Source of the DNA: Anaerolineae bacterium
Lineage (GTDB): Bacteria; Chloroflexota; Anaerolineae; Promineifilales; Promineifilaceae
NCBI GenBank assembly: GCA_023954475.1
Contig: JAMLHW010000007.1
Coordinates: 1-64,000 of the forward strand
Direction: 5' to 3'
Length of the DNA: 64,000 bases
Shown here: one piece after another, positions 4,129-22,670 of the stretch
How positions within the stretch are numbered: position 1 is the first letter of the stretch
How the letters are laid out: the number at the start of each line of letters is the position of its first letter
The notes under the pieces: model-generated
Seen by the model: the letters and a program-made list of their open reading frames with translations, nothing else
Database searches by the model: none
Told to the model about the DNA's origin: nothing
Made by a program: the position numbers and the translations under genes

Positions 4129-7100
4129 AGAGAATCCTCCTCCCCTGTTACCGGTGGTGCGGGTAGCGCTGTTGGCGCCGCTGTCTGCACCGTTACCACC
4201 GCGGGGCGTGTCACCAGAAGGGTTGTGGCAGCCGTACCGGCACCGGTGTCGTCCAGCGGCGGCAAGTCCGGCCCGATGGCGACGTCCCGGTACAGTGGCG
4301 GCAACGTATTGAGCAGCACGCCGACTGCCTGGGCGCTCGTTGGGTCTGCCTGACTGTTTGCTGTAATGACTTGAGCTGCTTCATCCAGTCGACCGTCACG
4401 GGCATAGGCAGCGGCACGCACCAGGGTCTCGCGCGGAATGGCATAGTCCGTCACTGCCTGGCGCAAAGCCGTCGTCTGGTGGGCGGCTTGCTCAGGCGTC
4501 ATCCTGAACCCGGCAGCCTGTAGCTGCGCCGCCAGGGCCGCGTTCGGCTCGGCTGCATCCAGCGTGTCGTAGACGGCATTGACAGTCGTTTCAGCAGGAG
4601 CCGTTGTCCGGGGTCGCATCGCGGCACCGGCCAGCCCGCGAATAGCATCCGGCTGCGTGCGGTAGGGATTGTCGGCTGCCAGACGACCGGTTACAGCAGC
4701 TATCCCAGCAGCGGTGCGTAGCCGTTCGACGATCTGCCGGTTGCCGTAGCCCGCTTCCTGCAATGCCCGCGTCTCGCTCTGCAGGGCAGCGACCGTCGCC
4801 CGCGTCGCATCCGGTACAGCGCCGACTGTGTCAGCATCAGCCGCAGCCAGAATCCGGCGCACAGCACGCGCTGCCTGTCGCCGTTGGGGCGGCAACCCGT
4901 CCGGCAGGGACGGCACTGTCCCTGTCTCCCGGAAAGCGGCAGTTGTGCGGTCGGCATAGGTGCCGGCAAACGGTGCCGGGCTGGTTGAGAGCATGACCGG
5001 CGTGTCGTCGAGATAGGCGGGGGCGGCCACCTGCGGCAGGTTGGCGAGGACGACGGCGACGCGGCGTGCCGTTTGGGCATCCAGGTCACTGTTGGCGGTG
5101 ATGTGGGCAGCGGCTCCGGCAAAATCACCGCGCATGGCGGTAGTCTGGGCGGCGTGCAGCACCGGTCGGGACACGGCGCCTGCCTGTATCTGCTCGCGCA
5201 GCATACGTGCCTTGCCGCCCAGTTCACCCAATGCAGTCACGCCGAGCCGGTTGGCCAGTGCCGCGTCAGGTGCCGCTGCTGCGGCCGTCTCGTAGATGGC
5301 AGTGACTGTTTCGGCCGCACCAATGCGGCGTGCCGGCTGCAAGACCGCATCGGCCACAGCCCGCACCGCTGCCGGATGGGAGCGATAGGGATTGTCCGGT
5401 TCCAATCTGTCGACGACGGGCAAGAGACCGCTCTCGCTGCGGTAGCGGGCGGCAATAGCGGCATCGCTGTACCCGGCGTCACGCAGGGCGGCGACATCAT
5501 CGGTGACCGCCTGGGCGACGGCAGCCGTTGCCGCCGCAAACTGCGCCCGGTCGGCAGGCGGCAGGGCAGCGCGAACGGCCCGCAGCCGGCGCCGTGCCCG
5601 CGTTGCCCGTGACTGGACGTGTTGGGGCAAATTGTCGAGCGGGTCGGCTCCACTAGCTTGCGGCGCGACATCAGATGCCAGTGACTGCGCCTGACGGACG
5701 ATGGCGCTGCCGTCTTCTGTCGTAAAACGGATGGCGGGCGCATCGCTCGCACCGGCAGAGGGCGTGGGTGGAACAGTGCGGCTCACAGCACTGTTGCCGC
5801 CACCACCTGACACAGGGCCTGTGCCGTTTCCGTTGGGGCCATTCCCCGATCCATCGCCATTCCTCGATTCATCGCCATTCCCCGATCCATCGCCGTTCCC
5901 CGATCCGTCGCCATTCCCCGATCCGTCGCCATTCCCCGATCCGTCGCCATTCCCCGATCCGTCGCCGGTGACAGGGCCGCCCGAACCGGAGCGCCCAGTT
6001 GCATGTCCGTCTGCTTGAGAGCCCCCGCCGGCATGCCCGTTGCCATTTGCGCGCCGGCGACCGGTCAGCAACACGGCCAACCCCGGATTGCGTGTCACCT
6101 GTGTGCCGATGACGGCACTGCTGAGCACATCCTTGACGCCCTGCGCTACATCCTCGCGCCCTTCGGCAGCCAGATAGCCCAGCGTCAGCCCCGTCGTCGC
6201 CCGGCGGCTGCTGCCCAACAACGCGCCACCAGCAGCGGCGGTCAGCGAAGAGCCGCCCTCGTTGTCGGCAGTGCGGGCAGCATGGGCGATGAGACCGGCA
6301 CCAACGGCTGTGCGTGCCGCTTTCCCACCCGCCCGCACAGCGCCGCTGACCTGCTCATCCACAGCGCCCACTGCGGCAACTCCACGTTGTGCCACCTCAG
6401 AGACACCGGCAGTCGCCAGTGCCACACCACTCCGTGCCGCACTGGCCGTTGCTGCTGCCGCTGCCCCAGACCCCACCGACATACCGCCAATGCTGTGATT
6501 GGTCGTCTTCAGCGCACTGAGGAAACGCCAGCCGACAGGAAACAGGGCGAAAAACGCCAGGCCGACAAAGACGAGGTCGCTGCTGTTGGCGGCGGCGATG
6601 AGAGCGTAGGTGATGATGCCCAGAAAGGCAGCGGTGATGCCCGTCTCGATGAACAACTCGCCGCCGCGCAGCAGGGTATTCACGGCAAAATGCTCGGTGC
6701 GCCGGAAGAATGCCAGCGGCAGGGTGATGGGCAGCGCCAGATAGACGAACAGGAAGGCGAATGTCAAAAACACCCACAGCAGGGCATCGAGACCGCCGAG
6801 GAAATTGGGCAGGATGCCGAGTCCCATGCGGAACATCCCGTCGCGGGCCAAATTGATGGCATCGCTGCGCTCACTGTCACTGAGATTGCCGAAGGTCGTC
6901 GTGTCGCCGTACGGGAAAAAGACAGTGGTAAACGCCGGGGGCAAGGCCGTATCGAGATCTGAGATGGTCTCGACGCCGACAAAGCTGGCGCTGATGTCGC
7001 CAATCTCAATGCACGGCGGTGTCGCCACGATCCACACCGGGCAGCCGTCGATGTCGTAGATGGTAAACACATTCCCCGGCAGCACCGGCAACAGCGGCGT

Positions 7101-7514
7101 TCCCATCGCCGCCGTCGTCGCGTTGCGGATATCCTGACCGAAAGTGATCCGCCACTGGTCGACCTGCTGGATGATGACGATGGGTGCGCCCATCAGGAAG
7201 GAGATGAGAAACCAGCGCGTGGCGAAGTGGAAAAACGGCATCCCCTCAGCGGTGGCGGGGAAGATCGTCTTGACGATGCGCAGTACCAGCAGCCCGACGG
7301 CAGCGAGGACGACAAAGACGACGATGAGCTCATCGACCGCCAGCAAAAACGCCTCGAAAATGTCGGGCAGCGCATCGAGTACCCATTTGTGGAAGTAGTG
7401 GGTGACCTGAATGAAACCGAGTTCGATCAGGTTGATGAGCCACAGCACCGTCGTCACCGCTTCGAGCAGGAAGAAGATGAGGGTGTCAAACGCTTTGTCG
7501 ATTAAGGCGCCCAT
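4125..7514 (-). CDS. VirB6/TrbL-like polytopic protein with long repetitive cytoplasmic tail
   Basis: 1129 residues. The first ~340 contain six to eight hydrophobic helices, including a long extracytoplasmic loop with two close cysteines (GCPVWIVATPPC). This is the arrangement of VirB6/TrbL channel proteins of type IV secretion and of Chloroflexota conjugative elements. Residues ~350-480 are Ala/Gly-rich, and about 500-545 are a GDGSGN repeat (DNA minisatellite). The C-terminal ~500 residues hold two related helical modules of about 215 residues each; compare DNPYRSHPAAVRAVADAV with DNPYRTQPDAIRGLAGAA, and AHITANSDLDAQTARR with AQVITANSQADPTSAQ. It lies 2 bases after the preceding gene and overlaps the next by ATGA. 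The VirB6 assignment is by topology and context rather than clear sequence identity. Confidence 0.6.
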   Translation of the reverse strand: MGALIDKAFDTLIFFLLEAVTTVLWLINLIELGFIQVTHYFHKWVLDALPDIFEAFLLAVDELIVVFVVLAAVGLLVLRIVKTIFPATAEGMPFFHFATRWFLISFLMGAPIVIIQQVDQWRITFGQDIRNATTAAMGTPLLPVLPGNVFTIYDIDGCPVWIVATPPCIEIGDISASFVGVETISDLDTALPPAFTTVFFPYGDTTTFGNLSDSERSDAINLARDGMFRMGLGILPNFLGGLDALLWVFLTFAFLFVYLALPITLPLAFFRRTEHFAVNTLLRGGELFIETGITAAFLGIITYALIAAANSSDLVFVGLAFFALFPVGWRFLSALKTTNHSIGGMSVGSGAAAAATASAARSGVALATAGVSEVAQRGVAAVGAVDEQVSGAVRAGGKAARTAVGAGLIAHAARTADNEGGSSLTAAAGGALLGSSRRATTGLTLGYLAAEGREDVAQGVKDVLSSAVIGTQVTRNPGLAVLLTGRRRANGNGHAGGGSQADGHATGRSGSGGPVTGDGSGNGDGSGNGDGSGNGDGSGNGDGSGNGDESRNGDGSGNGPNGNGTGPVSGGGGNSAVSRTVPPTPSAGASDAPAIRFTTEDGSAIVRQAQSLASDVAPQASGADPLDNLPQHVQSRATRARRRLRAVRAALPPADRAQFAAATAAVAQAVTDDVAALRDAGYSDAAIAARYRSESGLLPVVDRLEPDNPYRSHPAAVRAVADAVLQPARRIGAAETVTAIYETAAAAAPDAALANRLGVTALGELGGKARMLREQIQAGAVSRPVLHAAQTTAMRGDFAGAAAHITANSDLDAQTARRVAVVLANLPQVAAPAYLDDTPVMLSTSPAPFAGTYADRTTAAFRETGTVPSLPDGLPPQRRQAARAVRRILAAADADTVGAVPDATRATVAALQSETRALQEAGYGNRQIVERLRTAAGIAAVTGRLAADNPYRTQPDAIRGLAGAAMRPRTTAPAETTVNAVYDTLDAAEPNAALAAQLQAAGFRMTPEQAAHQTTALRQAVTDYAIPRETLVRAAAYARDGRLDEAAQVITANSQADPTSAQAVGVLLNTLPPLYRDVAIGPDLPPLDDTGAGTAATTLLVTRPAVVTVQTAAPTALPAPPVTGEEDSL
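5840..5969. repeat. 18-bp coding minisatellite (about 7 units)
   Basis: Seven near-identical 18-base units (core ccattccccgatccgtcg on the plus strand) encode repeated Ser-Gly-Asn-Gly-Asp-Gly in the VirB6-like protein. Units differ at a few positions. Length is a multiple of 3, so expansion and contraction keep the frame. Confidence 0.85.
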
Positions 7515-8417: not shown

Positions 8418-10205
8418 TCACGGCACCAATAACGCCGGATCGATGTATGCGCCGCCTGTCGCCACACCCCAATGCAGATGCGGTCCTGTCGAGCAGCCGG
8501 TACTGCCCTCGTAGCCGACCACCTGCCCCTGACTGACAATGCCACTCGTGACAGCGAACCCGCTCTGATGCGCCAGCACGTGCAGGTAGCCGCCGGCTGT
8601 CAGCTGCTGGTAATTGCCGTAGCCAAAATGCGGTGGGTCAGAGCCGTCCATCGCGGAGCAATCGACAAAACTATCGGCTCCGGCAAAGGTGATGCGCCCA
8701 GCCATCGGCGCGACAATGCCCGTACCATGCGCCGCAGCCAGGTCGATGCCGTTATGCCACCACGGTGCTGCCGGCGGACAGCCGTATGGTGTGCCGTCGA
8801 TGCCGGTGAAATACGGCTGGCAACCAAAGCCGCGTACCAGACTGCCTGCCAGCGGCCAGACGGCACTGTCACCACCAGGGCCGGGCGTACCGTCGCCACC
8901 AGGCACACCGGCGTAGATGTCGCCGTAGACAGCCGGGGTGGGCAGCGGCGGGATGGGGTCGGCCTGACCATGGGGACAGGTGACGGGATCCGGCTGCAGC
9001 ACGATCCAGACCGGCACCGCACCCTGCAACCCCGCCGGATCGACGAACTCGCGCTGCCAGCCCGTCGTCACACCCAGTTCAGCCACTGCGCCGGTCGGGG
9101 CGATGACGGCAATGGGATAGCTGCGCGTCGCACCGGCAGCAAACACACTCTCCTCCAACGGGACGGCTGCCGGCAGGCCGAGATGTTCCAATCCGGCATC
9201 ATCCCCGCGCCACTGCCCGCGCACCGTGTCACCACTTTGGTCGATGTCGCGGATAAACAGAAAACCCGACAGCGGCAGCAACGTGTCCTCGCCGCTGTAA
9301 TTGGTGACGGTGACATCGAAGCGGTGTGTCGTCCGGTCTGCTCCCGGTCCCGGCACCGTGCTGTGTGCATCGAGGCGCAGCAAGAACACCTGCCCTGCCC
9401 CGTCATTGAGCCACACATCCTGGCCGAGGTAATGCTTGCCCACAGCGTAATACGGCGTTTCAGTCGGCGGAACGGTCGCCGTCGGCAGCATCGTCGGTGT
9501 CGGTACCATTGTCGGCGTCGCACCAGCCGCCACGCTCACGTACACAGTCAACTCACCGACCGCCGTCCACGGCCCACCGTTGACTTCACTCGTCGCCGTC
9601 AAACGCATGTACCGCGCCGTCGTCGGCCACACCGAGATGGGGACGGTCGCCGTCGTATCGGGCAGGAAACCGGTGGCCGCCGTCGCCCAGGAAAACCCGT
9701 CGCTGCTGAAATCGAGGATGAAACCGGCCACACGGCCATTGGCGTCGGCTTGCTTGGGCGTGTAGTCGAGTTGGACGATGGGGCCGTACGCGGCACCGAA
9801 ATCGAGGATGAGCAGGTGCGGGTGGGGCGGCGCACTGCCCGACCACGCCGTATGCCAATTGGTCCACGGACTGCCGTCGAAAACCTGGCTCGCCCAATCG
9901 CCCGGTTCTTCGCTGTCCACATAGGTGACAGACCAGCCGGCTTTGGGAATCTGGGCCAACGTCGCCGGTGGTGGCGTGTAGGTCGGTTGCGGTGTGTAGG
10001 TCGGCTGCGGCGTCGGCGTCGGCACCGGTGTCGCCGTGGCACAGGTGCTGTACGTCTTGCCGTCAAAGGCGGCATACTCACCGACAGTCGCCGTGACGGC
10101 CGGCGTCATGGCCGGGGTCGGCGTCTGGGCGGCAACCGGCAGCAATAGCAACAACAAACCTGCGCAACTGACCACAGCCGTGAATATGAGTAGCCGCCAC
10201 TTCAT
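8418..10205 (-). CDS. Secreted M23 (LytM-type) metallopeptidase with discoidin-like domain
   Basis: 595 residues. Signal peptide at 1-26 (ending AQT), Pro/Thr linker at ~30-85, then an F5/8-type-C (discoidin, carbohydrate-binding) domain at about 90-225: ASQVFDGSPWTNWHTAW, LLILDFGAAYGPIVQL, ARYMRLTATSEVNGGPWTAV. A central beta region follows. The C-terminal ~140 residues are an M23 peptidase with all metal and catalytic landmarks: WHNGIDLAAAHGTGIVAP (HxxxD), YLHVLAHQSG and GPHLHWGV (HxH). It would cut peptidoglycan peptide bridges. In conjugation clusters such an enzyme opens the wall for the channel. The stop overlaps its upstream neighbour in ATGA (10202-10205). Confidence 0.85.
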   Translation of the reverse strand: MKWRLLIFTAVVSCAGLLLLLLPVAAQTPTPAMTPAVTATVGEYAAFDGKTYSTCATATPVPTPTPQPTYTPQPTYTPPPATLAQIPKAGWSVTYVDSEEPGDWASQVFDGSPWTNWHTAWSGSAPPHPHLLILDFGAAYGPIVQLDYTPKQADANGRVAGFILDFSSDGFSWATAATGFLPDTTATVPISVWPTTARYMRLTATSEVNGGPWTAVGELTVYVSVAAGATPTMVPTPTMLPTATVPPTETPYYAVGKHYLGQDVWLNDGAGQVFLLRLDAHSTVPGPGADRTTHRFDVTVTNYSGEDTLLPLSGFLFIRDIDQSGDTVRGQWRGDDAGLEHLGLPAAVPLEESVFAAGATRSYPIAVIAPTGAVAELGVTTGWQREFVDPAGLQGAVPVWIVLQPDPVTCPHGQADPIPPLPTPAVYGDIYAGVPGGDGTPGPGGDSAVWPLAGSLVRGFGCQPYFTGIDGTPYGCPPAAPWWHNGIDLAAAHGTGIVAPMAGRITFAGADSFVDCSAMDGSDPPHFGYGNYQQLTAGGYLHVLAHQSGFAVTSGIVSQGQVVGYEGSTGCSTGPHLHWGVATGGAYIDPALLVP

Positions 10206-12355
10206 ACGCCCTGCCTCCCGCCCGCTGTCTCTCTCCTCTCGCTCCGACCTCTCTCCTCTCCACGCCTCTTGCTCTGCCCCGCGTCCTCTATCTCCATCCT
10301 CCCGTCTCTATCTCCTCCAATCCACGCCAGCGCTTCCTCAAAACGCGTGGCCGGCAATTCCTTGTAACCGGCAATGCCGAAATGGCGGTACAGGCGGCCA
10401 TAGAGACGGCCGAACGGATTGCCTGAACCACCGCTTTCCCCGGCAGCCAGTGCGGCAGCCTCGATTGCCGCACGCAGTTGCTGCGCCTGCCCTGCCGAAA
10501 TGCTGGGGGCGGATTCTGTGTTGCCGATACCGAGGCGCCCCCCACCGGCACCGTTATGGGCAGCGGTTGTTTGCCGGCCCGATCCGGTTGGCGCAGACTG
10601 CCACGGCGTGCGGCTGTAAGGCAGCCTGGCAAAGCGCCAGCGCGGTGGCCGCGGCAAGGTCGCCAGCGCATCCACCGGCCACAGCCGCTGGGCCAGCAAA
10701 CGGTAGCGGCGCTGCAGCTGCACCAGTACCTGGTCATCCGGCAAACCGACGATGTCAGCCGGGCTCAATGCCGCTTTCTCGGTCAGCCGGGCGTGCTGCG
10801 AACGCGACTTGAAGCCGAAATCCAGTTCCAGCCGCTCTTTGCGCCGGCCGCTGGTGAAGCTCGTCTCGGGCGCCAGTTGGGTGCCGTACAACTCCGACAT
10901 GCGCTGCGCCGTCTGATGGTCTGCCGGCGGATACCACACCTGATTCTGGCAATTGGAGAGAATGGTATTGGCCTTGTCCTGCCCATAGCGGTCACGGAGC
11001 TGGCTGAATGTCTGGGCGTAGAGCACCAGCCATAACCCGTAGCCGCCGACCGTCGCCAGATACGTATCGATATTCTCTAGTCCCACTGTCGGCAGCTCAT
11101 CGACCAGCAGCAAGGCCGGTTGGACATAGCCCAGCGCCATCTGCTTGCGCATCAGCGCCGCCAGAATGGCACGCATGGCACCGGATGCCCCGGCGAGGTC
11201 GGCAAAGCTGAAGGTGACGTAAATGGTGGCGTTGCGGGCAATCCAGTCGGTGGGAATGGTCTCCCCCTGCCCGGTCAATGCCTGCCGGTAGGCGACGTAA
11301 TAGCCGATGCGGGTCTGGAACGTCCCCCACGCCGAGGCGGCAAAGCGGTCCAGCGGCTCGGTCGGATCTGCCCCGTTGGTAAACTGGTAAACGGCGTCCC
11401 GGTCTACCGTTGCCAAAGCGGGCAAGGTCGTGCGCGGGTCCATCGTGGCCAGATCCAGCAGTACATTGAGCGGGTGCAACCCAAAGACGCGGGCGTAGCG
11501 GTCGCAGGCGGTAAACAGTGCCAGACTCTTCTCGTAGAAAATCGGGTCGCGTTCGCGCCGCGGCATGACGAGGTGGGTGTGCAGTTCGGCGATGTCGGCA
11601 AATCGGCCGAAGTCGTAGTAAGCGGCGAGGTCGATGCTGTGCCGTGCCGGAATGTTGAAAATGGGGCCGACGTGCCGCTGCCGGTCGGTCGCCGTCCGCT
11701 CCCACAACTCCCGTTTGGGGTCGATGACCAGCGCCGGGCCGGCAAAGGTCAGCAACATCTCGGTCGCCTGCATCCCTTTGCCGCAGCGGGTGGGACCGAC
11801 GACGAGGGTGTGGCCGCCGCTGTGCTGCAATGCGGCCGTCGGCACGCCGATGACGTCAGTGTGACGGTCATGCGCAGTTGTCGCCAACGACGCCAGCGGC
11901 AACCCGCTCGTCTTGAGCACCAGGCCCAAACGGCGCGCTTCGTCCGGAGTCAACCGGTTCTGCCGCCGCCGGTGTTCGGCACGATACACCTGGTACAGCT
12001 TCTCCGGCCGTGCCGGCTGCTGCAGCCACCAGACAAATCCCAGGAGCGGTGTCAGCACACCCCCACAGGCACACAGATGGACGAGAAAGGCAAACACAGG
12101 CAGGGATAATGCAGCCACACGCTGCGTGTTCTGCACGACGGTCAGCAGCGGCACGGCAGGCAGCGTGACAAAGCCGAGCAGTGAAAACAGAATCCGCTGC
12201 GGGTTGTCCAGTTGGCTGGTCAGCGGATGCCACAGATACGCGGCGATGGTACTGGCAGCAAAGACAGCGGCAAACACCAGACGACGACCCCGCCGCCCCT
12301 GCCCACCGCGCAACCGCTTGCGCACCACTCTGTTACTCAACGCCTTCAGTTCCAT
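10202..12355 (-). CDS. Type IV coupling protein (VirD4/TraG family) with C-terminal ORF6C-like domain
   Basis: 717 residues. Two N-terminal hydrophobic regions (about 26-44 and 55-110) anchor it. Walker A GPTRCGKG is at 187-194 and Walker B LLLVDE at 415-420, followed by LPTVGLENIDTYLATVG and VLYAQTFSQL, as in TraG/VirD4 DNA-pumping ATPases that bring DNA or protein to the type IV channel. The last ~75 residues (NPFGRLYGRLYRHFGIAGYKELP, split here as two motifs: FGRLYGRLYRHFG and YKELPATRFEEAL) match the ORF6C domain of phage antirepressors and closely resemble the protein encoded at 21316-21606. ATG 12353-12355 is preceded by GGGA, and this leader is copied in the tandem repeat upstream. Confidence 0.85.
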   Translation of the reverse strand: MELKALSNRVVRKRLRGGQGRRGRRLVFAAVFAASTIAAYLWHPLTSQLDNPQRILFSLLGFVTLPAVPLLTVVQNTQRVAALSLPVFAFLVHLCACGGVLTPLLGFVWWLQQPARPEKLYQVYRAEHRRRQNRLTPDEARRLGLVLKTSGLPLASLATTAHDRHTDVIGVPTAALQHSGGHTLVVGPTRCGKGMQATEMLLTFAGPALVIDPKRELWERTATDRQRHVGPIFNIPARHSIDLAAYYDFGRFADIAELHTHLVMPRRERDPIFYEKSLALFTACDRYARVFGLHPLNVLLDLATMDPRTTLPALATVDRDAVYQFTNGADPTEPLDRFAASAWGTFQTRIGYYVAYRQALTGQGETIPTDWIARNATIYVTFSFADLAGASGAMRAILAALMRKQMALGYVQPALLLVDELPTVGLENIDTYLATVGGYGLWLVLYAQTFSQLRDRYGQDKANTILSNCQNQVWYPPADHQTAQRMSELYGTQLAPETSFTSGRRKERLELDFGFKSRSQHARLTEKAALSPADIVGLPDDQVLVQLQRRYRLLAQRLWPVDALATLPRPPRWRFARLPYSRTPWQSAPTGSGRQTTAAHNGAGGGRLGIGNTESAPSISAGQAQQLRAAIEAAALAAGESGGSGNPFGRLYGRLYRHFGIAGYKELPATRFEEALAWIGGDRDGRMEIEDAGQSKRRGEERGRSERRETAGGRQGV

Positions 12356-12955
12356 CGCTTATCCCACTTCATTCCGTGACAATCCGTGCAATCTGTGGCC
12401 ACTCATTCGGCCGATTACAACGCCGCAGATGTCGCCGATGACACGGCTGCTTATCCTGCTGCTGCATCGCTGCCGTTCGCTGCCCGCTCTTCTCTCTTCA
12501 CCTTCCGCTTTCCGCCTTCATCCTTTGTTCTCCCGCCTTCAGTTCCATCGCTTATCCCACTTCATTCCGTGACAATCCGTGCAATCTGTGGCAACGCATT
12601 CGGCCGATTACAAAATCCCAGATGAGGATGATTCTCCTGTTGCTGCATCGCCGCCGTTCGCTGCCTGCTCTTTTCTCTTCACTTTCCGCCTTCATCCTTC
12701 ATCCTTTGTTCTCCCGCCTTCAGTTCCATCGCTTATCCCACTTCATTCCGTGACAATCCGTGCAATCTGTGGCAACTCATTCGGCCGATTACAACGCCGC
12801 AGATGTCGCTGATGACACGGCTGCTTCTCCTGTTACTGCATCGCTGCCGACATTCGTGTCCTTTCGCATCATTCACTGCCCACGCTTCTCTCTTCACTTT
12901 CCGCCTTCATCCTTCATCCTTCATACTTCATACTTCATACTTCATCCCTCCTCCT
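12344..12955. repeat. Tandem ~180-190 bp repeat duplicating the leader of the coupling-protein gene
   Basis: Three copies start at about 12344, 12537 and 12718 (periods 193 and 181). Each begins with cttcagttccatcgcttatc, the reverse complement of the coupling gene's first codons (ATGGAACTGAAG) and leader, then carries caatccgtgcaatctgtgg, one TCGGCCGA palindrome, and a C/T-rich stretch of TTCCGCCTTCATCC type. The third copy decays into a short (CTTCATA/C)n array at about 12905-12955. No gene lies in this 600-base gap. It probably arose by slippage or unequal exchange and leaves three ribosome-site/start-codon look-alikes ahead of the real one. Confidence 0.8.
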
Positions 12956-14903
12956 TCATTGTCAGCACCGTCGCATAAATCTCCTGCCCTGCCATATCCG
13001 GCTGCCACGCTGACCACATCAGGGTGCAGTAGTGGTGGTAGGTCGCCCCACACTCGGCTGCCACAGCCGTTGCCGGACGGATCGAAGAGCGGGCAATGAC
13101 CAGGTCACCCGGCGCACCCGTGCAATCTGCCAGGTCGGAGCGACAGGCGACCAGGGTCGGCCGGCCGAGCCGTAACAGTCCCGGATTGGCCAGAGTCGGA
13201 TCCCCTTCCTCGTAGAGGGTGACGAACAACACGGCATCCTGGCCGCTAGCGACGACGGGATAGACGGCGTCGGCATAGGCACCGGTGATGCGTCCGGCCA
13301 CGTCGTTGCGACTGACGATGAGCGGATTGCTCCACGTGCTGCCGTTATCGGCCGAAACCGATCCCAGCACCGCATACACGTCACCGGCGCCGGGCGTCAC
13401 CGACTCAACGCGATGCAGCGGCGTCCACCCTGTCCCGATTTCCTGACTCGGATTGCCGCCATAGAGCACAAAGCTGTCAAAGGTCGTCGTGCCCATGAGG
13501 ACGGCACCGGACACCGTCACTGAATCCCACAGCGCCGTATTCTCCGCTTTGGCCGTATCCGGATCGGCTTGCAGAAAGACGGTCACCGTCGTCGTCAACG
13601 CCGTTGTGCTGACAGTCAGAGGCACATATCCGGCTGTCGGTGACTGTGCCGGACTCCATACGACGCTGACTGCTGCCGGGTCATTGCCGCCGTTGGGGTC
13701 AATGCCGACCCGCATGCGCATGTCGGCCGGAGCGCACGACGTACCCGGCGGCACGACGCCGCAACTCGCATCTACTGAAATCCCCCGTCCCTGCACCGTC
13801 ACACTCACTGTTTGACTAATCGCCGTCGTCGCCTGCGTCAGCAGCGTCGTCTCAAAACGGCCATCCGCAATCGTCACCCGTTGTGCCGCGCCGGTCGCCT
13901 GTGGCCATGTCGTCTCTGCTGCCAGGGTCGCTTCCCGCGCCAGTTGCGTCGGGTCGGTGGCGGCAGGCGCATGGGTAATCCAGGCCAGCGCCGCGCTGCG
14001 GGCATGCATGTCGATCCGGGGGCGGCTGCTGATGGATGCGGGGCTGGTGAGCACGGCACGTAAAATCCATGTCCCCCCACCCCCGATTTTCTTGAGTACG
14101 GCCACCTGGGTCGGCGTCTGCTGCACAGCGAGGACGAAGACATCGCTTTCCGGACCCGCGTACGCCAGGTGGGCCTGCGTACCCGGTAAAATAACATGGC
14201 TGACCCATCCGCCCGGCGTCTGCACGTGTTCACGCAAAGCAAGCGCCGTGTCGCTGTGGATGACGGTCGCGAACCCGTCGCGGTCGACCTTCACCTGGGG
14301 TGCGCTGCCAAACCCGAGGGTGCTCTCGCTGCTGCTGCTCTGATCCAGCGGGCGATTGTCGACGCTGTGGCGGTAGCGCAATTCGCCCGACGGCAACTGA
14401 TAGACGAGATGCAGACGCCCCTGCGCATCGTAGGCGATGTCCGCATCGACTCCGGTGAGCGTGCTGGTGACGTAGTAGTCCGGTCTGCCCGCATCCGATT
14501 CGGCAATGTGCAGGGCTGGCCCGGAACGCCAGACAACGGCCGATTGCCCGTCGCCGGCAACAGCGGTGATGAGCTGCTCGTCGCCCGGCGTCACGGTCAG
14601 GTTGTTGACCTGGCCTGCCTGCCACCGGATACCGTCTGCGGTCGCGGGTGGATTTGGGGTTGCTGTCGGCAACGGCGTGACCACAGGTGGTGGACAAAAC
14701 AGACTGCCGACGACGGGGGGTGTACTGCCGGTTGGCGGTGTTGCCGGCGTGCTGCCCGGTCGGGTGGCGGTTGCCGCCACCGCGCCTGGGAATGGCAAAC
14801 ATGTGCCTGGTGCAGGGACCGTCGGCGTGCAGGCTACCAGCGGCAGCCAGCCCACAAGGGCGATGAACGTGGCGGTTACTGTGATAGAGCGCGTTTCTGC
14901 CAT
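12942..14903 (-). CDS. Exported lipoprotein with BNR/sialidase-like repeats
   Basis: 653 residues from ATG 14901-14903, supported by GAGAGG eight bases upstream; an earlier in-frame start lacks this. The N-terminus is a lipoprotein signal with lipobox LVAC (WLPLVACTPTVPAP), so Cys 23 would be lipidated. A Pro/Thr linker follows. The body has repeated beta-propeller-like strands (QLITAVAGDGQSAVVWRSG, DADIAYDAQGRLHLVYQLPSG, SADNGSTWSNPLIVSRNDVAG) of the SxDxGxTW Asp-box type seen in BNR/exo-sialidase folds. Catalytic sialidase residues are not obvious, so a binding role is as likely as an enzymatic one. It may head the minus-strand secretion-like operon or be a separate unit, because the 600-base repeat gap lies between. 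Confidence 0.65.
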   Translation of the reverse strand: MAETRSITVTATFIALVGWLPLVACTPTVPAPGTCLPFPGAVAATATRPGSTPATPPTGSTPPVVGSLFCPPPVVTPLPTATPNPPATADGIRWQAGQVNNLTVTPGDEQLITAVAGDGQSAVVWRSGPALHIAESDAGRPDYYVTSTLTGVDADIAYDAQGRLHLVYQLPSGELRYRHSVDNRPLDQSSSSESTLGFGSAPQVKVDRDGFATVIHSDTALALREHVQTPGGWVSHVILPGTQAHLAYAGPESDVFVLAVQQTPTQVAVLKKIGGGGTWILRAVLTSPASISSRPRIDMHARSAALAWITHAPAATDPTQLAREATLAAETTWPQATGAAQRVTIADGRFETTLLTQATTAISQTVSVTVQGRGISVDASCGVVPPGTSCAPADMRMRVGIDPNGGNDPAAVSVVWSPAQSPTAGYVPLTVSTTALTTTVTVFLQADPDTAKAENTALWDSVTVSGAVLMGTTTFDSFVLYGGNPSQEIGTGWTPLHRVESVTPGAGDVYAVLGSVSADNGSTWSNPLIVSRNDVAGRITGAYADAVYPVVASGQDAVLFVTLYEEGDPTLANPGLLRLGRPTLVACRSDLADCTGAPGDLVIARSSIRPATAVAAECGATYHHYCTLMWSAWQPDMAGQEIYATVLTMKEEG

Positions 14904-15070
14904 GTGGTATCCTCTCTTCGACAAGGCTCAAGGCAAGCACGCAGACGCAATGCATCACCACAGTCCAATCGGGGCAGGAATGGTAGCGTCCAGAGCTATT
15001 TGAGTTTGGGCAGATGGGGGCAGAACGCTATACTTGAAGCTGTCCTGCCCTTATTCCGGGTCAGACATCT

Positions 15071-15382: not shown

Positions 15383-15605
15383 GTGCAGTACCAAGATTTT
15401 GACGTCAGTATAGAATTGATTGCAGGCCGCAGTTACCGGATCGCCGTACTGCACTCACCGGCCGGCGAAGCTGCAGAGGTCGCCGATTTCCCGTTTGATG
15501 CCGTCGCCGTCAAACTGCATCTGACGCAACTGGAAAATGCCCTGCTGAAATCCGGCAACCGGCGACGGCATGTCCCAACCGAAAGTGAACAGGCACAACG
15601 AAGTT
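15383..15605 (+). pseudogene. 5' remnant of a CHAT-domain protein gene
   Basis: A GTG at 15383 preceded by AGGAG (15371-15375, spacing 7) opens a frame VQYQDFDVSIELI...YRIAVLHSPAGEAAE, then FPFDAVAVKLHLTQLENALLKSG. This matches the typical N-terminal leader of Chloroflexota CHAT proteins (YQDFDL..., VxVLxSPAGEA, FxLPF, LENFLLRxG). Similarity stops after about 75 residues, around SEQAQR. The frame then runs through unrelated sequence to 15859, overlapping the convergent kinase gene. The CHAT protease-like domain itself is absent, so I call it a truncated pseudogene with an intact start site. The full 189-residue frame could be expressed, but the tail looks non-coding. Confidence 0.6.
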
Positions 15606-15750
15606 GGCTTCCGCTGCGTAGGCAGTGCTTTCTGAGATGCTGGTTTCTGGAATACTGCGGGGGTGGCGCGTCAGCAACGCGTTGGGTTCTCCCCACCGTC
15701 ATCCCGCGTCAGCGGGTCGCGACAAAATTTCGGCAAATTGGCCGTTTGGA

Positions 15751-18120
15751 CTACGCTAGAGGTACGCGCAATGCAACCGTCGTCCCCTGGCCCTGCGACG
15801 TCACGGCGACCGCCCCACCCACTGAACCGGCCCACGATTTCATCCCGGCAATGCCGTAATGCCGCTGACGCAAGAGGTCGGTCAACGGTAATGTGGCTTC
15901 TGTCCGTTCTTGGCCATCATCAGCCACAATTAATTCGAACTGCTGCTCACAACACGCGGCGCGAATCGCCACCTGCGTCGCCTCGGCGTGTTTGACCACA
16001 TTGTTTAACGCTTCCTGCAATATGCGGTAGACAACCTGAGCCAGCCGGTCATCGTTCGCCGTTTCGACGACTTCTAAATCAGTGAGCTCGGTTTCAATCG
16101 CTAACTTATGCTCGACGCGAAACTGATCGGCGAGCGAGAGGATCGTTGCCTCAATACCGTACTCTACAATACGCGGAAACGCATTTTCATAGACGCTGCG
16201 CAATTCCTGATCGAGATCCGTCAAATGGTCGGATAATTCATCCAGTTGTTGCACTGCAACGGCATCGGTCGTTTCCAGATTGCGCACTGTTTGGCCCAGC
16301 AGCATGCGCACCGCAGCCAGCCGCTGCAGCGGCTGATCGTGCAACTGCGAGGCAAACACACGCCGTTCTTCCTCCTGCACCGTGATGATCTCACGGCTCA
16401 AGGTTTCGGCCGAGTCGAGCAGAACGATGATTTCGCTACCCATCGCCAGCGTCGCGGCGGCGTGCTCGAGGAAGGCGATCGCTTCCTGATTGAAAAACCC
16501 GTCGCGCGGCCGAGACAAAACCCAAAGTCCCAATGTTTGCTCACGCACGCGCAGGGGCAACGCGACTTCGGCCCACGGCAATGCGTGGAAGATAGGATGC
16601 AACGCACCTTGACGCTTTTGCACAGAGCGTATGATGGTTTGATCGAGCAACCACGTTTCATCGGTCGCCTCGCTCCATGGCGGTCGGCCGATGGTGGCGG
16701 TCGGTGCGAGTAGTTTGTTGCCGTTCTTGAGGGAGAGGGTCGCCTTGGGTACATCGAGCAGGGCACACATATTGGTCACGACGCGCTCCAGAGTGTCGAC
16801 ATCAGGTTGGTGGGCCAGTTCGTTGGCAAATCGGGTCAATTGTGTCGCAGATGCCGTTTTTCGGCCGAAGAACAAGCGCTGTATCCAGTTAGTTAACAGA
16901 CGTGTGCAGGTCGGTGCCAGCGCAGCCAGGACGACAAATAGCAGTACGGCAGGCAAGATCAGGCTTAGACCGTCGCCGTAGCGTTGGTTAAGTGTGTACA
17001 ATCCCAACCCATACGCTGCAGCAAATGTGATGATGAGGAGGGCGTAGGGTGTAATTCGGCCGAAGGTGCCATCCAAGTCAAGATAGGCGTGGCGAAATAT
17101 GACGTACAAATAACCGAGTGGAACAGCGATGAGACCGACCATGGCCAGAGGCATCGGCAAGATGACGCTACCCCAGATCGCCAGTGGAATGAATGCAAAC
17201 AGAATGGCCGGCAGGAAACCAATACTGACAAGCACGAGTAAAATGTTGAGCTGCTGGCGCAAATAGGGTGACGCCGCCCTATACCGCCGCGTCACGAGCA
17301 GAACGAGCATCGCGACTCCGCCCATGGCCTGTGCGGCGGCACCGAGTTTGTAAATACTGACACCGATCAACCCTTCTACGCTCGTACCGCGCGGGAATAG
17401 CATTAGCCCTTCCAGAAATGCGACGATGCCTAACAGGGTGGCGACTGAAATTAGCAGTTTGAGCAGTGAGCGTGTTTTTCGGCCGAGAGGTTCATAGTAT
17501 GGCAACAAACCCAGATATACCCACCCTGCGGCAAGTAGAAACAGAAACGGTTGCGAGGTGATCCATGTCAACGGGACACCCATCAATGTCCCGGTCCAGC
17601 TGATGACGACGACGCTGGCTAAAAGAAAAATGTAACCGAGCCAAATCGCCTGTCGATTTTCACGCCATGCATAGTGCAACGCAATTGCGCCAACACCCCA
17701 CGAGATCAAGGCTAATATGGCCGGAGCGACGCGAATAGCAAAGGCGTAAGCATCTGGCGCAGGTAGATATGGAACTGATACAGAAACATCATGCCCATTT
17801 CGGCCGATTGTTAATTCGTAAACATCTTTGCGATCGATTGGTGGAAGAAAGTTAGAGGAACGCTGAACAGGTTGCCCGTTGATCGCAAGAATTTGATCAC
17901 CTGTCTGAAGAAACGGAGCAGCAACCGACTCACCTTCGATCAAAGCCACCTGCATCATGTGATCGGGACGCCATTGTGTTTGGAAAGCACTATACGGTAT
18001 ATACAGCCACCAATAAAGATTGCAGTAGAGCAATATGAGCAGCACTGCAATAATGGCTGCATGACGCAATCGAAACAGTCGATCAGAAAACATAATCGCA
18101 CAATGGAAGCATATTCTCAT
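15751..18120 (-). CDS. ComP-like sensor histidine kinase (PDZ, multi-pass membrane, HisKA_3)
   Basis: About 790 residues. One N-terminal helix (HAAIIAVLLILLYCNLYWWL) is followed by an exterior PDZ domain (FLQTGDQILAINGQPVQ, KDVYELTIGRNGHDV), then about eight or nine more helices, a GAF-like stretch, and the kinase core. The H-box is EEERRVFASQLHDQPLQRL, with the phospho-acceptor His near residue 594. The ATPase part has an N-box (YRILQEALNNVVKHAEA) and a final glycine box (QGQGTTVAL). PDZ in the first exterior loop plus many helices plus HisKA_3 is the layout of Bacillus ComP, the ComX receptor. The start is uncertain: GTG 18150, ATG 18120 and ATG 18093 are all possible, and every one overlaps the end of the synthase gene, implying coupling. 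Confidence 0.8.
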   Translation of the reverse strand: MRICFHCAIMFSDRLFRLRHAAIIAVLLILLYCNLYWWLYIPYSAFQTQWRPDHMMQVALIEGESVAAPFLQTGDQILAINGQPVQRSSNFLPPIDRKDVYELTIGRNGHDVSVSVPYLPAPDAYAFAIRVAPAILALISWGVGAIALHYAWRENRQAIWLGYIFLLASVVVISWTGTLMGVPLTWITSQPFLFLLAAGWVYLGLLPYYEPLGRKTRSLLKLLISVATLLGIVAFLEGLMLFPRGTSVEGLIGVSIYKLGAAAQAMGGVAMLVLLVTRRYRAASPYLRQQLNILLVLVSIGFLPAILFAFIPLAIWGSVILPMPLAMVGLIAVPLGYLYVIFRHAYLDLDGTFGRITPYALLIITFAAAYGLGLYTLNQRYGDGLSLILPAVLLFVVLAALAPTCTRLLTNWIQRLFFGRKTASATQLTRFANELAHQPDVDTLERVVTNMCALLDVPKATLSLKNGNKLLAPTATIGRPPWSEATDETWLLDQTIIRSVQKRQGALHPIFHALPWAEVALPLRVREQTLGLWVLSRPRDGFFNQEAIAFLEHAAATLAMGSEIIVLLDSAETLSREIITVQEEERRVFASQLHDQPLQRLAAVRMLLGQTVRNLETTDAVAVQQLDELSDHLTDLDQELRSVYENAFPRIVEYGIEATILSLADQFRVEHKLAIETELTDLEVVETANDDRLAQVVYRILQEALNNVVKHAEATQVAIRAACCEQQFELIVADDGQERTEATLPLTDLLRQRHYGIAGMKSWAGSVGGAVAVTSQGQGTTVALRVPLA

Positions 18121-19024
18121 CAGTGAATCCGTATAACGCAGCTTTTGCACGCTGTCGATACTCGGCAGCGATGGTTAAAGACCATTCAGTCGCGTGCATT
18201 GACTGCATAATAGCCATCGTATGCTCAACACGACCTGGTTCTTTGCTGCATTGACGCAACAAAGCAGCCATTTCATCATGACGGGGATGCTCATTCAGCG
18301 ACATTGCGTAGATTACCGGCAGTTTGTAGATACCATCAGCAACATCGTCTTGTAGCCCATGGCAATCACTGGTTATGGCAAGGGCAATGCCGGCATTCAA
18401 TCCATATTGCGTGAACGCTTCCAAAACCAATGAATCATCTGTAGCCAAACGCGCACCTGACCATGCTGCAGTCGCAAATGGCTCGGCGGTCGATGCAATG
18501 ATGTTGGCAAAATAGGTTTCAAGTGCCAGATCGTTCTGTGGGTCAATTTGTGACTTTGCGGCTAGCGCCCACGCTCGGCCGAACGCCAACAAAATCTCGG
18601 AAGCTACTTCGCCCTCTGTGAGATATGAGATACTTGAGTTACCAGTGGCTATCAAAGCCAGACCAATCGAAATTGCTCCCTTCGTTCCAGCATCCATCCA
18701 TGGTTGATCGTAGTTTTCATCGTCTTGAATACTGTCAAAGACCTTGCTGGCAAGAAAATAGCAGGACCAAAAAGCCGCAACAGGAACTGCTGCTTCTCCT
18801 GAGCCGCCAGCTGCAACACATGTCAGGCACGGCAGGACATCTATTGCAGCAAGCTGACGATTCCTATGACGTTTGAACCAGTGTTCCAAGACCCGATTCA
18901 ATTCAGGATAGGCAAGTGCAGTCAGGAGCTCATCCGTGATGAAATCGCGAACCAATCGGCCGAAATACTCAACTTGCATAGCTGCTGGCTTATTACCGAT
19001 TAAACTGGGCCAGGTGGAGTCCAC
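18083..19024 (-). CDS. ComQ-like isoprenyl-diphosphate synthase / peptide prenyltransferase
   Basis: 313 residues, about the length of ComQ and short trans-isoprenyl synthases. The fold is all-helical. The first Asp-rich motif reads FDSIQDDEN (D near 96 and 100-101), a variant of DDxxD, and the second reads SDCHGLQDDVADG (DDxxD near 224-228). Both metal-binding motifs are thus present, as in ComQ, which binds GPP or FPP and transfers the chain to a Trp of ComX. The GTG start at 19024 overlaps the end of the small peptide gene by 25 bases; an ATG at 18979 (20 bases after the peptide stop) is the alternative. The next gene is the ComP-like kinase. A carotenoid or quinone role would not explain these neighbours. 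Confidence 0.75.
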   Translation of the reverse strand: MDSTWPSLIGNKPAAMQVEYFGRLVRDFITDELLTALAYPELNRVLEHWFKRHRNRQLAAIDVLPCLTCVAAGGSGEAAVPVAAFWSCYFLASKVFDSIQDDENYDQPWMDAGTKGAISIGLALIATGNSSISYLTEGEVASEILLAFGRAWALAAKSQIDPQNDLALETYFANIIASTAEPFATAAWSGARLATDDSLVLEAFTQYGLNAGIALAITSDCHGLQDDVADGIYKLPVIYAMSLNEHPRHDEMAALLRQCSKEPGRVEHTMAIMQSMHATEWSLTIAAEYRQRAKAALYGFTDENMLPLCDYVF

Positions 19025-19203
19025 AAATCAGTCATCTCACCTATGTGTCCTGCAACCATCGCGCCAGTGACAACGATTGGGCAGATTACGCCAAATCCTC
19101 GTGATTTCACTACCTCAACGACATTCTTTGTAGCTTTCTGGATCTCTTTTTCTGTAAGTGCGGTGGGCTGTCCATCAGAAGGGGTTTTGTACTCTGCAGT
19201 CAT
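19000..19203 (-). CDS. ComX-like pheromone precursor candidate (67 aa)
   Basis: ATG 19201-19203 has a good ribosome site (TGAGGA, about 9 bases upstream). The 67-residue product has a hydrophilic leader, then a hydrophobic middle (VICPIVVTGAMVAGHIG), and ends GEMTDLWTPPGPV. Its only Trp (residue 61) is seven residues from the C-terminus, the region where ComX peptides carry the prenylated Trp. It is directly upstream of, and overlaps, the ComQ-like gene, and the receptor kinase follows. ComX sequences are hypervariable, so identity cannot be expected; assignment rests on position, size and the single C-terminal Trp. It could instead be another prenylated ribosomal peptide. Confidence 0.6.
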   Translation of the reverse strand: MTAEYKTPSDGQPTALTEKEIQKATKNVVEVVKSRGFGVICPIVVTGAMVAGHIGEMTDLWTPPGPV

Positions 19204-19305
19204 TGATCGATTTCCTCATTGTCATTTGCCCCACCTAAAACTTACGACACACAACTATGCAACAATAACTCATCGTGGATATAAAACACGCTGAGTGGCA
19301 ATAAT

Positions 19306-19318
19306 TACTACCGTAGTA
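19306..19318. promoter_or_regulatory. TACTAC-C-GTAGTA dyad upstream of the peptide operon
   Basis: A perfect 6-bp dyad with a 1-base centre lies about 100 bases upstream of the peptide start, between the regulator gene and the peptide-synthase-kinase operon, next to a TCGGCCGA copy (19326). Half-site look-alikes (tactaccg, agtagtag) occur near 15177 and 15202. Position suits an operator for the LuxR-type regulator, but this is an inference. Confidence 0.35.
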
Positions 19319-19348
19319 GTAGTTTTCGGCCGAAGCCTTGCACTGAAT

Positions 19349-19996
19349 TTAGAGCAGCCCTAACCTTTCTGCGTATTTGATGCCGGCTAATTTGTTGTTT
19401 GGGGTTTCCAAACGAGCCAAAGCCAAAGAGAGGTGCTTTTTGAATGTGTGAAGCGAAACGCCAAGATCATCCGCAAGTTCAGAATATTCAGCAGTGGGAT
19501 TTTGATTGATTGCAGCCAGAACCTCAATTTGTCGTTGAGTGAGGCCAACAGCATTCTGACGAACATAGGCACTATTCGCGGCTTCAGACAAATACACGCT
19601 GTTTTTCATGACAAGTTTCAGAGCCTGCGTAATATCCTGCTGTGAGTCTTCTTTGCTGATGAAACCGTTGACTCCAGCTGCCAGTGCCTGACGCACAATT
19701 CCCGGATCTGCCCATGCTGAATGAATTACAATGCGAACAGTTGGACAAATACGTCGAATCATTCTGATTGTTGGGATTGGCCTGAATCGCTCCTTGCGTG
19801 AAGGATCAGCGTATTGGGGCATACGCTGATCAAGCAGCAGAATGTCCGGATGGTATTTCTTAACCAACGGCAACGCTTCTTCACCGACCCGCCCTAAAGC
19901 CACCATTTCTAACTCTGGATCGGCGTTAATAATATTGCTCAATGACAGTAGCATCAATTCATGATCTTCGACAGCAACTACCCGAATTCTTGACAT
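19349..19996 (-). CDS. ComA-like response regulator (receiver + LuxR HTH)
   Basis: 215 residues from ATG 19994-19996 (GGAG 7 bases upstream). The receiver has the acidic pair in VAVEDHELML, the phospho-acceptor Asp in DILLLDQRMP, and ISKED with the conserved Lys. The C-terminus is a LuxR/NarL helix-turn-helix (GLTQRQIEVLAAINQNPT, ELADDLGVSLHTFKKHLS). This is the class of ComA and fits the HisKA_3 kinase. It lies 145 bases upstream of the peptide gene on the same strand and is divergent from the M28 peptidase. Confidence 0.85.
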   Translation of the reverse strand: MSRIRVVAVEDHELMLLSLSNIINADPELEMVALGRVGEEALPLVKKYHPDILLLDQRMPQYADPSRKERFRPIPTIRMIRRICPTVRIVIHSAWADPGIVRQALAAGVNGFISKEDSQQDITQALKLVMKNSVYLSEAANSAYVRQNAVGLTQRQIEVLAAINQNPTAEYSELADDLGVSLHTFKKHLSLALARLETPNNKLAGIKYAERLGLL

Positions 19997-20029
19997 CGTT
20001 TCGCTCCAATACAGTAGAATTAATACACA

Positions 20030-21274
20030 ATGAAACCAATAAAAAAGCGCGAGAACCATAACAACTTCTTCCATTTGATGCAAATACTCTCAGTTCCACG
20101 CCTCAACGGCAGTGAGGCTCTCAAACAGACTCGACAAGCTCTGAGCGACTGGTTAGTAGAACATGAGATCAATCACACCATTCACCGATTTCGTCTCTAT
20201 CCTTACTTCATTGAAATCGGCGGGATATGGCTCGTTGTGACTCAAATCTTGCTGGCCGTTTCTATTTGGTTTCGTTGGGGATGGGTTGCGCTAATCGTAG
20301 CTTTTGCAAGCTTAGTGGTTGTCATTCTGGAAACCATGGGCATCCCGTTGGTTTCGCGTCTATTATCTGATACAGGTGAAAACATTGTAATCGAACTTGA
20401 GCCCCAGGCTTTATCTGAACAAGAAATCATTCTCTCTGCACATTACGATAGCAAAACAGAGTTGTTCAATGATCAGCAACGCATATTTTTTATGGGCAAG
20501 TTACCCTTGGCTATGGGGCTCACGCTGCTGCTAGGCACGCTAGGCATTGTCAACGAACTACTACAGAATTCCACCTCAAAGGGTACAGAAATTTTGTACA
20601 TTGTTTCGATCGCTTTGACTGTGCCACTCTTGGCATTATTTATCCCATTAGGTGTAAATTTCGTTTTCGGTCGATTTGCCTCCCCTAGTCAAGGTGCAAT
20701 TGATAACGGTGCGAGTTGCGCTATTTTGTTAGACATTGCGGATCAAATAAACAAAGGCGTTATAACGTTGAAGCAAACGAAGATTTCTGTCGTGCTATTT
20801 TGTGGCGAAGAAGTGGTTGTTCAGGGATCAAGAGCATTCGTATCGAGTCGCACGTTTCCGCTTCCCACAGCGGCGCTCAATTTAGAGCTAATGGGGCAAA
20901 ATGGTGATTATGTCATCTGGGAGAAGATTGGGAGCCCGATACAATCATATCAGTCAGATTCCAGTCTGAACGTGCTATTGACGGAAATTGTCAATCATCA
21001 TGCCGAAACCAGATTAAAACTTCATGATGGGCCAGCAGGATCAGACTCTTTACCATTCCTGACAGCAGGTATTCCAGCTACGAGCCTTGCGTCTTTGGAT
21101 GGCGAACTGGGGTTTAGCGGATTACACAGTCCACAAGACAATCTAGAACGTATTGCATATGAGAAGCTACCGAACAGCATTGCTCTTGTTGAAAACCTAC
21201 TTTACAAGCTAGACTCAATCGGGGTTAAAAATATCACTCACTCTCCTCGTGATGCTAACTCGGCCGAAGCATGA
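20030..21274 (+). CDS. Membrane-embedded M28-family metallopeptidase
   Basis: 414 residues. M28 landmarks are in order: SAHYDSKTE (first His and catalytic Asp), GAIDNGASCA (bridging Asp), FCGEEVVVQGSRAF (catalytic and zinc Glu), NLELMGQNGD (Glu where most relatives have Asp) and HSPQDN (last His). Four hydrophobic segments interrupt the domain: two at about 60-115 before the HYD motif and two at about 155-215 between HYD and the bridging Asp. So the active site is tethered to the membrane. It is transcribed away from the response-regulator gene with only 33 bases between starts; ATG 20078 is an alternative start giving 81 bases. Proximity suggests processing or degradation of the peptide signal, unproven. 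A TCGGCCGA copy lies in its last codons. Confidence 0.75.
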   Translation: MKPIKKRENHNNFFHLMQILSVPRLNGSEALKQTRQALSDWLVEHEINHTIHRFRLYPYFIEIGGIWLVVTQILLAVSIWFRWGWVALIVAFASLVVVILETMGIPLVSRLLSDTGENIVIELEPQALSEQEIILSAHYDSKTELFNDQQRIFFMGKLPLAMGLTLLLGTLGIVNELLQNSTSKGTEILYIVSIALTVPLLALFIPLGVNFVFGRFASPSQGAIDNGASCAILLDIADQINKGVITLKQTKISVVLFCGEEVVVQGSRAFVSSRTFPLPTAALNLELMGQNGDYVIWEKIGSPIQSYQSDSSLNVLLTEIVNHHAETRLKLHDGPAGSDSLPFLTAGIPATSLASLDGELGFSGLHSPQDNLERIAYEKLPNSIALVENLLYKLDSIGVKNITHSPRDANSAEA

Positions 21275-21315: not shown

Positions 21316-21606
21316 TCAAAAAGGTAACAAGTCATTGTCTACCAAACTACTATACCATTGCGTGAGAAAGTTCATCGCCTCGTCATACTTATTTGCTGGC
21401 AGTTCACGATAGCTAGCAATATCAAAGCGTCGGTACAGTTCCCCATTCACACCTCCAAACTCATTTCGACCGCTGCGCTTGCCCAGCTCTAACCCAATCG
21501 CCTTGACTGCCTGGCTGAGGCGGCTTACTTGAGCGGTGGATACATAGCGCGATGGATTGCCAAGCATAGCTTCGATCTGGTCGAGACGTACCGTGTGGGC
21601 ACTCAA
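21316..21606 (-). CDS. ORF6C-domain protein (detached C-terminus of an antirepressor)
   Basis: 96 residues starting at TTG 21604-21606, which overlaps the stop of the preceding frame (TTGA). Contains GGVNGELYRRFDIASYRELP, the ORF6C signature of phage antirepressors. Adding a single T at the junction would fuse it to the upstream frame as ...GHDQH-LSAHTVRLDQIE, a natural coiled-coil continuation, so this is probably the second half of one gene broken by a 1-base deletion. The same domain ends the coupling protein at 10202-12355. Confidence 0.65.
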   Translation of the reverse strand: MSAHTVRLDQIEAMLGNPSRYVSTAQVSRLSQAVKAIGLELGKRSGRNEFGGVNGELYRRFDIASYRELPANKYDEAMNFLTQWYSSLVDNDLLPF

Positions 21607-22184: not shown

Positions 22185-22192
22185 TATCAACC

Positions 22193-22570: not shown

Positions 22571-22670
22571 TGTTGTAAATCCTCTCGACCAGATCCCAAT
22601 AAGCGGCTGCAGGCTTGGAATCAGGTGCGGGTAGTGGTTAATATGTGACTGATGAGGGTAGAATCCCGTC

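Follow-up and report, generated by a model that had tools for sequence, protein, structure and literature searches.

Organization of the locus

The 64,000-nucleotide stretch analyzed here (the window) comprises positions 1 to 64,000 of contig JAMLHW010000007.1 from a member of the Anaerolineae in the phylum Chloroflexota (assembly GCA_023954475.1). On its minus strand, at 15751-19996, it carries four genes: in order of transcription, a response regulator, a 67-residue peptide with a tryptophan (Trp) near its end, an isoprenyl-synthase homolog, and a PDZ-bearing HisKA_3 kinase. An initial annotation, made from the sequence alone, had likened them to the quorum-sensing system ComQXPA, in the order regulator, then peptide-synthase-kinase; open reading frame (ORF) and domain analysis found all four parts, on one strand and in that order (A-X-Q-P). 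The features of the locus are:

19349..19996, minus strand: response regulator of ComA-like position and type (Response_reg 57.8 bits, weak GerE helix-turn-helix); a response regulator stands beside the synthase/kinase pair in most relatives
19306..19321, no strand: inverted repeat TACTA-N6-TAGTA (also TACTAC-C-GTAGTA) in the gap between the regulator and peptide genes; candidate operator
19000..19203, minus strand: 67-residue precursor peptide with a single Trp (W61) followed by TPPGPV; candidate prenyl-peptide signal
18083..19024, minus strand: ComQ-like isoprenyl-synthase homolog (ComQ clade, hhalign match, motifs, AlphaFold fold); putative peptide prenyltransferase
15751..18093, minus strand: ComP-like sensor kinase with one transmembrane (TM) segment, exterior PDZ-like domain, eight TM segments, GAF, HisKA_3 and HATPase_c

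The longest ORF of the kinase is 15751-18150 on the minus strand (799 residues), but its most likely start is the ATG at 18093, with which kinase and synthase overlap by 11 nt. The synthase begins at either GTG 19024 or ATG 18979, and its overlap with the peptide gene holds only with the former; for the regulator the best start is ATG 19996, not TTG 20083. The mutual overlaps described in the initial annotation are therefore real, but smaller than was given there. The locus had also been drawn up to 21274, which takes in an M28 peptidase gene on the other strand (20030-21274); this gene has no homolog in the relatives' loci scanned and so is not a conserved part, and it was dropped as a candidate processing enzyme for the same reason.

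Recurrence in related genomes

A close homolog of the synthase is present in 17 of the 396 genomes of the class, the window's own included. A family search and a profile search of the genomes' contigs added loci from Ardenticatenaceae, Anaerolineae, other metagenome-assembled genomes of Chloroflexota, Desulfosporosinus and Peptococcaceae; a phylum-wide profile search with a broad alignment returned mostly canonical synthases and was left out of the family counting. In most relatives a HisKA_3 kinase lies beside the synthase, usually overlapping or abutting it, together with one or two regulators. The Desulfosporosinus loci have the order peptide-synthase-kinase-regulator (X-Q-P-A), with overlaps as in the window, and thus bridge Q-X-P-A and the A-X-Q-P of the window.

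In relatives the normal neighbors of the synthase are a PDZ-type kinase and a regulator. The regions upstream of the synthase were scanned at 35 loci for ATG-started ORFs of 40-120 residues with Trp in the last eight, and 26 of them encode such a peptide. The same scan gave 2 on the reverse strand and a mean of 6.2 (maximum 12) in dinucleotide shuffles. Both the repeated layout across genomes and the excess of Trp peptides over the shuffles show that the locus goes beyond a chance arrangement.

The precursor peptide

The peptide of the window, MTAEYKTPSDGQPTALTEKEIQKATKNVVEVVKSRGFGVICPIVVTGAMVAGHIGEMTDLWTPPGPV, is preceded by a good Shine-Dalgarno sequence (GAGGAA). It has 67 residues and its only Trp, W61, is the seventh residue from the end, exactly as first described; it is thus of the ComX type in the sense of a 50-73-residue precursor whose Trp lies among the last 5-10 residues. 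Its leader carries a motif, (T/S)xKxI..A....GFG, in which GFG follows an alanine-rich helix and which is shared with two precursors in each of the sister genomes of loci L023 and L105. In seven homologous peptide pairs the frame and the Trp near the C-terminus are kept, with ratios of nonsynonymous to synonymous differences (pN/pS) of 0.30-0.66. Trp-tailed peptides therefore recur under purifying selection, and the small ORF is conserved among relatives in this sense.

Several relatives have leaders of the NHLP/Os1348 type known from ribosomally synthesized and post-translationally modified peptides (RiPPs), with a match to NF038399 of 42.5 bits, above its cut-off; the window leader is not NHLP. 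At four loci (L031, L034, L029, L028) NHLP-type precursors with 3-5 or more tandem Trp cores (GPWGWQF, GPWDWQF, GPFPGWQ) lie beside ComQ-like enzymes, and these are candidate multi-core prenyl-peptide substrates. Paired cysteines occur in the tails at L033 and L130 and also in some of the tails that bear Trp (CWPRC, CWYGGGC).

The isoprenyl-synthase homolog

The 313-residue synthase matches PF00348 with 27.2 bits, just at the cut-off. Its first aspartate-rich motif (FARM) is DSIQD. The isopentenyl diphosphate (IPP)-binding motif GKxxRP and the RRG after the FARM, which the canonical synthases compared have kept, are missing from the window enzyme and have been lost in the whole group of peptide-locus enzymes, as in ComQ. 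At the position of the second aspartate-rich motif (SARM) stands SDCHG, a degenerate pseudo-SARM in which the second Asp alone is kept. Of the two Asp-rich motifs named in the initial annotation, the first stands; the second, QDDVAD, is not the SARM, since it aligns with the D..G.YTLP segment downstream of it. The Gln of GLQDDVAD had been considered as a Trp-recognition residue and was dropped on the same alignment, which places it outside the SARM.

A maximum-likelihood tree separates 44 peptide-locus enzymes, ComQ among them, from 26 canonical synthases by a single branch (100/100, length 0.99), and a first tree with 9 canonical synthases gave the same split (100/100); both left out PalQ and ChrPC. 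The peptide-locus clade consists of ComQ (Bacillales), the Desulfosporosinus enzymes and about 30 Chloroflexota homologs. Within it, ComQ and the Desulfosporosinus enzymes join (95/75), and nearest to them is one enzyme of another Chloroflexota lineage (98/88). A profile of 19 Chloroflexota homologs aligns with four annotated ComQ-type proteins (plasmid loci L042-L045) with an hhalign probability of 99.7 and an E-value of 7.8e-27, the ComQ side of these comparisons consisting of database records. The window enzyme thus combines a FARM, a pseudo-SARM with the second Asp only, and a grouping with ComQ apart from the chain-elongating synthases, including the quinone- and carotenoid-chain enzymes with which it might have grouped. 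Each hallmark of chain elongation (GKxxRP, DDxxD with RRG, a DDxxD SARM) is absent or degenerate, and the motifs predict an enzyme that is not chain-elongating.

Modeled with AlphaFold, the protein adopts a trans-isoprenyl synthase fold (predicted local distance difference test, pLDDT, 87.6). Geranylgeranyl diphosphate (GGPP) and polyprenyl synthases lead the structure search (Z 31-33), and the Trp farnesyltransferase Ord1 (PDB 9v4g-9v4j) matches with Z 28.9 and a root-mean-square deviation of 2.6 over 281 residues. The fold alone is not decisive for the function of the synthase.

The sensor kinase and the regulator

The kinase contains HisKA_3 (27.9 bits), HATPase_c (39.4 bits) and GAF (26.4 bits) domains. 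Hydropathy gives nine segments, arranged as one TM segment, an exterior domain of ~80 residues and eight further TM segments, a layout that real ComP proteins share; in the ComP type of architecture, 8-10 TM helices and an exterior domain precede HisKA_3 and HATPase_c. The exterior domain had been called PDZ: PDZ models match it weakly (E 0.004-0.012, with Pfam scores below cut-off), they match seven of the 12 sensors of the family and one real ComP, and residues 56-127 form a beta domain in the AlphaFold model. The claimed layout is accordingly present, with a PDZ-like exterior domain. A structure search with the whole kinase model matched the catalytic part only. In profile alignments the sensor half matches ComP across 396 columns (E 1.8e-15) and also the Desulfosporosinus kinases (E 9.9e-13).

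The neighboring gene had been described as a LuxR-type response regulator, of which the receiver part is clear (57.8 bits); the LuxR/GerE match, at 16.3 bits, is below cut-off. As at ComA-type loci, a NarL/LuxR-type response regulator adjoins the other three genes. In five relatives' loci the gap between regulator and peptide genes contains ATAGYR-N6-YRCTAT, and these five are all the exact copies in 682 kb of loci, a count that is descriptive because the motif was derived partly from the loci counted. The motif does not occur in the window, whose inverted repeat at 19306-19321 differs; this repeat may be an operator for feedback on the peptide operon.

Interpretation of the locus

We regard the locus as probably a homologous, rearranged (A-X-Q-P) ComQXPA-type prenyl-peptide signaling system outside the Firmicutes, in a bacterium of Ardenticatenaceae-like Anaerolineae affinity. 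The initial annotation had left homology and convergence side by side; homology is favored by the ComQ-containing clade of synthases, the ComQ profile match, the alignment of the sensor half with ComP, and the overlap pattern shared with Desulfosporosinus. According to this model, the ComQ-like enzyme would bind the 67-residue precursor and most likely move a farnesyl- or geranyl-type chain from the diphosphate to W61. The leader would then be removed and the lipidated tail exported, perhaps in most close relatives by the ABC-2 operon that follows the kinase there, though not in the window. The extracellular peptide would be sensed, presumably in a quorum-dependent manner, by the PDZ-like/multi-TM half of the kinase, which, judging from what is known of these families, would phosphorylate the neighboring regulator. 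The targets of the regulator are probably the palindrome in front of the peptide gene, through which the system would feed back positively on itself, and linked genes, among which the type IV secretion cluster downstream is the best candidate.

Several observations weigh against this interpretation. In the enzyme, the pseudo-SARM is S-D, and mutational work on ComQ, in which the second SARM Asp alone is likewise kept, found that only N or G is accepted in first place (PMC5331326). In many Chloroflexota members the SARM is still DDxxD, which has been described as unsuitable for ComQ (PMC5331326); PalQ, too, has Asp at the SARM, and its double mutant is still active (PMC10853753). A conserved Gln three residues before the SARM helps Trp recognition in Ord1 and PalQ (PMC13290415), and at this position the enzymes of the window, L023 and L105 have Ala, where other members have Gln; Trp peptides are present at all three loci despite the Ala. 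Among close relatives in the window's own subclade, there are four (L024, L106, L130, L033) in which the small ORF at the peptide position encodes no C-terminal Trp, and leader types differ widely among loci, which would also fit antimicrobial RiPPs. The Pfam model of ComX, PF05952, matches neither the window peptide nor anything in its own genome, although the sensitivity of this model is low, its scores falling below cut-off in control genomes too. The regulator is a weak sequence match to ComA, the kinase-core tree links the kinase to ComP with moderate support (90/87), and no ABC transporter lies behind the kinase of the window or nearby. The Trp-less relatives, the change of Gln to Ala and the DDxxD SARM of many members suggest that a residue other than Trp may sometimes be the acceptor.

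Some of these observations would sit well with an autoregulated, bacteriocin-like lipopeptide RiPP, in which the prenylated peptide is antimicrobial, ABC-2 proteins serve export or immunity, and kinase and regulator provide self-induction as in lantibiotics, signaling being secondary. NHLP/Os1348 leaders in some relatives, tandem precursors with 3-5 GPWGWQF or GPWDWQF repeats, and LanFEG-like ABC-2 operons behind the relatives' kinases all speak for such a product. We nevertheless consider it unlikely, as the leader of the window is of another type, neither an ABC transporter nor any other biosynthetic gene is found nearby, and the closest characterized relatives of enzyme and kinase, ComQ and ComP, are signaling proteins.

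Far less probable still is a small isoprenoid as the signal, made or modified by the synthase and sensed by the kinase, with the small ORF incidental. The trans-isoprenyl synthase fold with its best matches among GGPP and polyprenyl synthases, the DDxxD kept at the SARM of several relatives, and the four close relatives without a Trp tail would be compatible with this; yet the IPP-binding motifs are missing in all members, the synthase falls on the ComQ side of the tree, and the small ORFs are enriched in Trp and under purifying selection.

Downstream genes and genome context

Behind the kinase, four close relatives (L024, L108, L109, L023) carry an ABC ATPase and two ABC-2 permeases, and permeases are present in L105 and L106; these genes are candidate exporter or immunity genes. 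In the window, a cluster resembling a type IV secretion system (T4SS) lies downstream in the same orientation:

12942..14924, minus strand: lipoprotein-like 660-residue protein, first gene of the cluster; homolog downstream of the kinase, in the same orientation, in genomes G307, G398, G404 and G406
10202..12355, minus strand: type IV secretion coupling protein, TraG/VirD4-like (PF02534 99.0 bits, PF12696 79.1 bits)
8418..10205, minus strand: M23 peptidase with F5/8 type C domain; syntenic in G307, G404 and G406
4125..7514, minus strand: 1129-residue polytopic protein, in a putative VirB6-like position; homologs in L151 and L154

Such a cluster lies downstream of the locus, in the same orientation, in five genomes, the window's included. 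They share the lipoprotein-like gene and, to varying extent, the M23 peptidase, the polytopic protein of ~1000 residues and others; VirB4-like P-loop_TraG genes are present in G404 and G406. The homologs of the 1129-residue protein in L151 and L154, whose own family includes L148, are found on contigs with VirB4-like P-loop_TraG genes. With mostly 1-3 copies of the lipoprotein homolog per genome, chance proximity is an improbable explanation for five linkages spread over four genera. A sixth copy (G405:C46) is found behind a kinase of the same family at a contig edge. The link is frequent but not obligatory, since a few longer contigs carry the cluster without the signaling locus. Control of DNA transfer or secretion is a plausible output of the locus, a hypothesis drawn from synteny. 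That Chloroflexota use prenyl-peptide quorum sensing, through a membrane-bound ComP-type receptor, to control a T4SS/conjugation cluster and so count their neighbors before DNA transfer is a tentative suggestion, which on balance we doubt.

In the Ardenticatenales relatives L148, L151 and L154 the T4SS-like cluster comprises the lipoprotein, the M23 peptidase, the polytopic protein of ~1000 residues and a VirB4-like ATPase, with a Prim-Pol gene in L151. The C-terminal stretch of the coupling protein (10202-12355) resembles an ORF6C-type protein beside a P22_AR-type antirepressor at 21316-22190, and similar antirepressor genes occur within ~20 kb of several other loci. An IS1-like element at 22629-23413 has two consecutive transposase-like ORFs and 27-nt imperfect terminal inverted repeats.

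The palindrome TTCGGCCGAA, which resembles HIP1 of cyanobacteria, is highly iterated: the window has 23 copies where 0.12 would be expected (sites 16860 to 63494, for example 16860, 17055 and 19325), and the 5.1-Mb genome has 3,215, compared with 17 of a reversed control. It is absent from positions 1-16859 of the window and from most relatives' loci. We do not favor the idea that a mobile element recently brought in the locus as cargo, as TTCGGCCGAA occurs at genome density in the locus and is missing in the secretion region.

Comparison with known systems

ComQXPA signaling with a prenylated Trp has so far been treated as a specialty of the Firmicutes, as the initial annotation also had it. 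This is consistent with a 2014 census by Dogsa et al., which found no comQXPA-like locus outside the Firmicutes and already listed Desulfosporosinus as a comQXPA-bearing genus (PMC4008528), and with a 2022 KEGG-based survey that found in chloroflexi no more than the ComP-ComA pair (PMC8895600). Our search of open-licence texts returned no paper on ComX/ComQ-type genes of Chloroflexota. A conserved Chloroflexota branch would imply that the system is old or has spread horizontally. It would also bring dozens of Trp/peptide prenyltransferases open to testing, some of them with multi-core substrates, and would provide candidate peptide quorum sensing for a phylum with little-known social biology; the type IV secretion link leads to a concrete hypothesis on the regulated target.

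The PalQ/PalX/PalP cluster of Paenibacillus alvei (PMC10853753) is alike in its Trp prenyltransferase resembling a trans-isoprenyl diphosphate synthase, its precursor peptide and its histidine kinase. Its leader is of the NHLP type, as in several Anaerolineae relatives and unlike in the window; PalQ acts on a C-terminal Trp, whereas six residues follow the Trp of the window peptide, and the published cluster has no described regulator. Ord1 has the same fold as the window synthase but acts on free Trp, and its Gln and first SARM Asp are replaced in the window by Ala and Ser. Peptide pheromones control conjugation in pCF10 and ICEBs1 by way of the cytoplasmic receptors Rap and PrgX and without prenylation; linkage of peptide signaling genes to transfer genes is common to these elements and the window, where the link is genomic only, but peptides and receptors differ.

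The closest likeness is to ComQXPA of Bacillus and Desulfosporosinus, with its four functions, a ComQ-clade enzyme with FARM and pseudo-SARM and without IPP motifs, a 50-70-residue peptide with C-terminal Trp, a TM-PDZ-8TM HisKA_3 kinase, a NarL/LuxR-type regulator and overlapping genes. The window differs in its order (A-X-Q-P versus Q-X-P-A), its phylum, the link to a T4SS-like cluster, a peptide outside PF05952, and a pseudo-SARM with S-D instead of N/G-D. Judged from sequence, what appears to be new is thus a homologous enzyme and sensor in another gene order, with other peptide families and in a new phylum.

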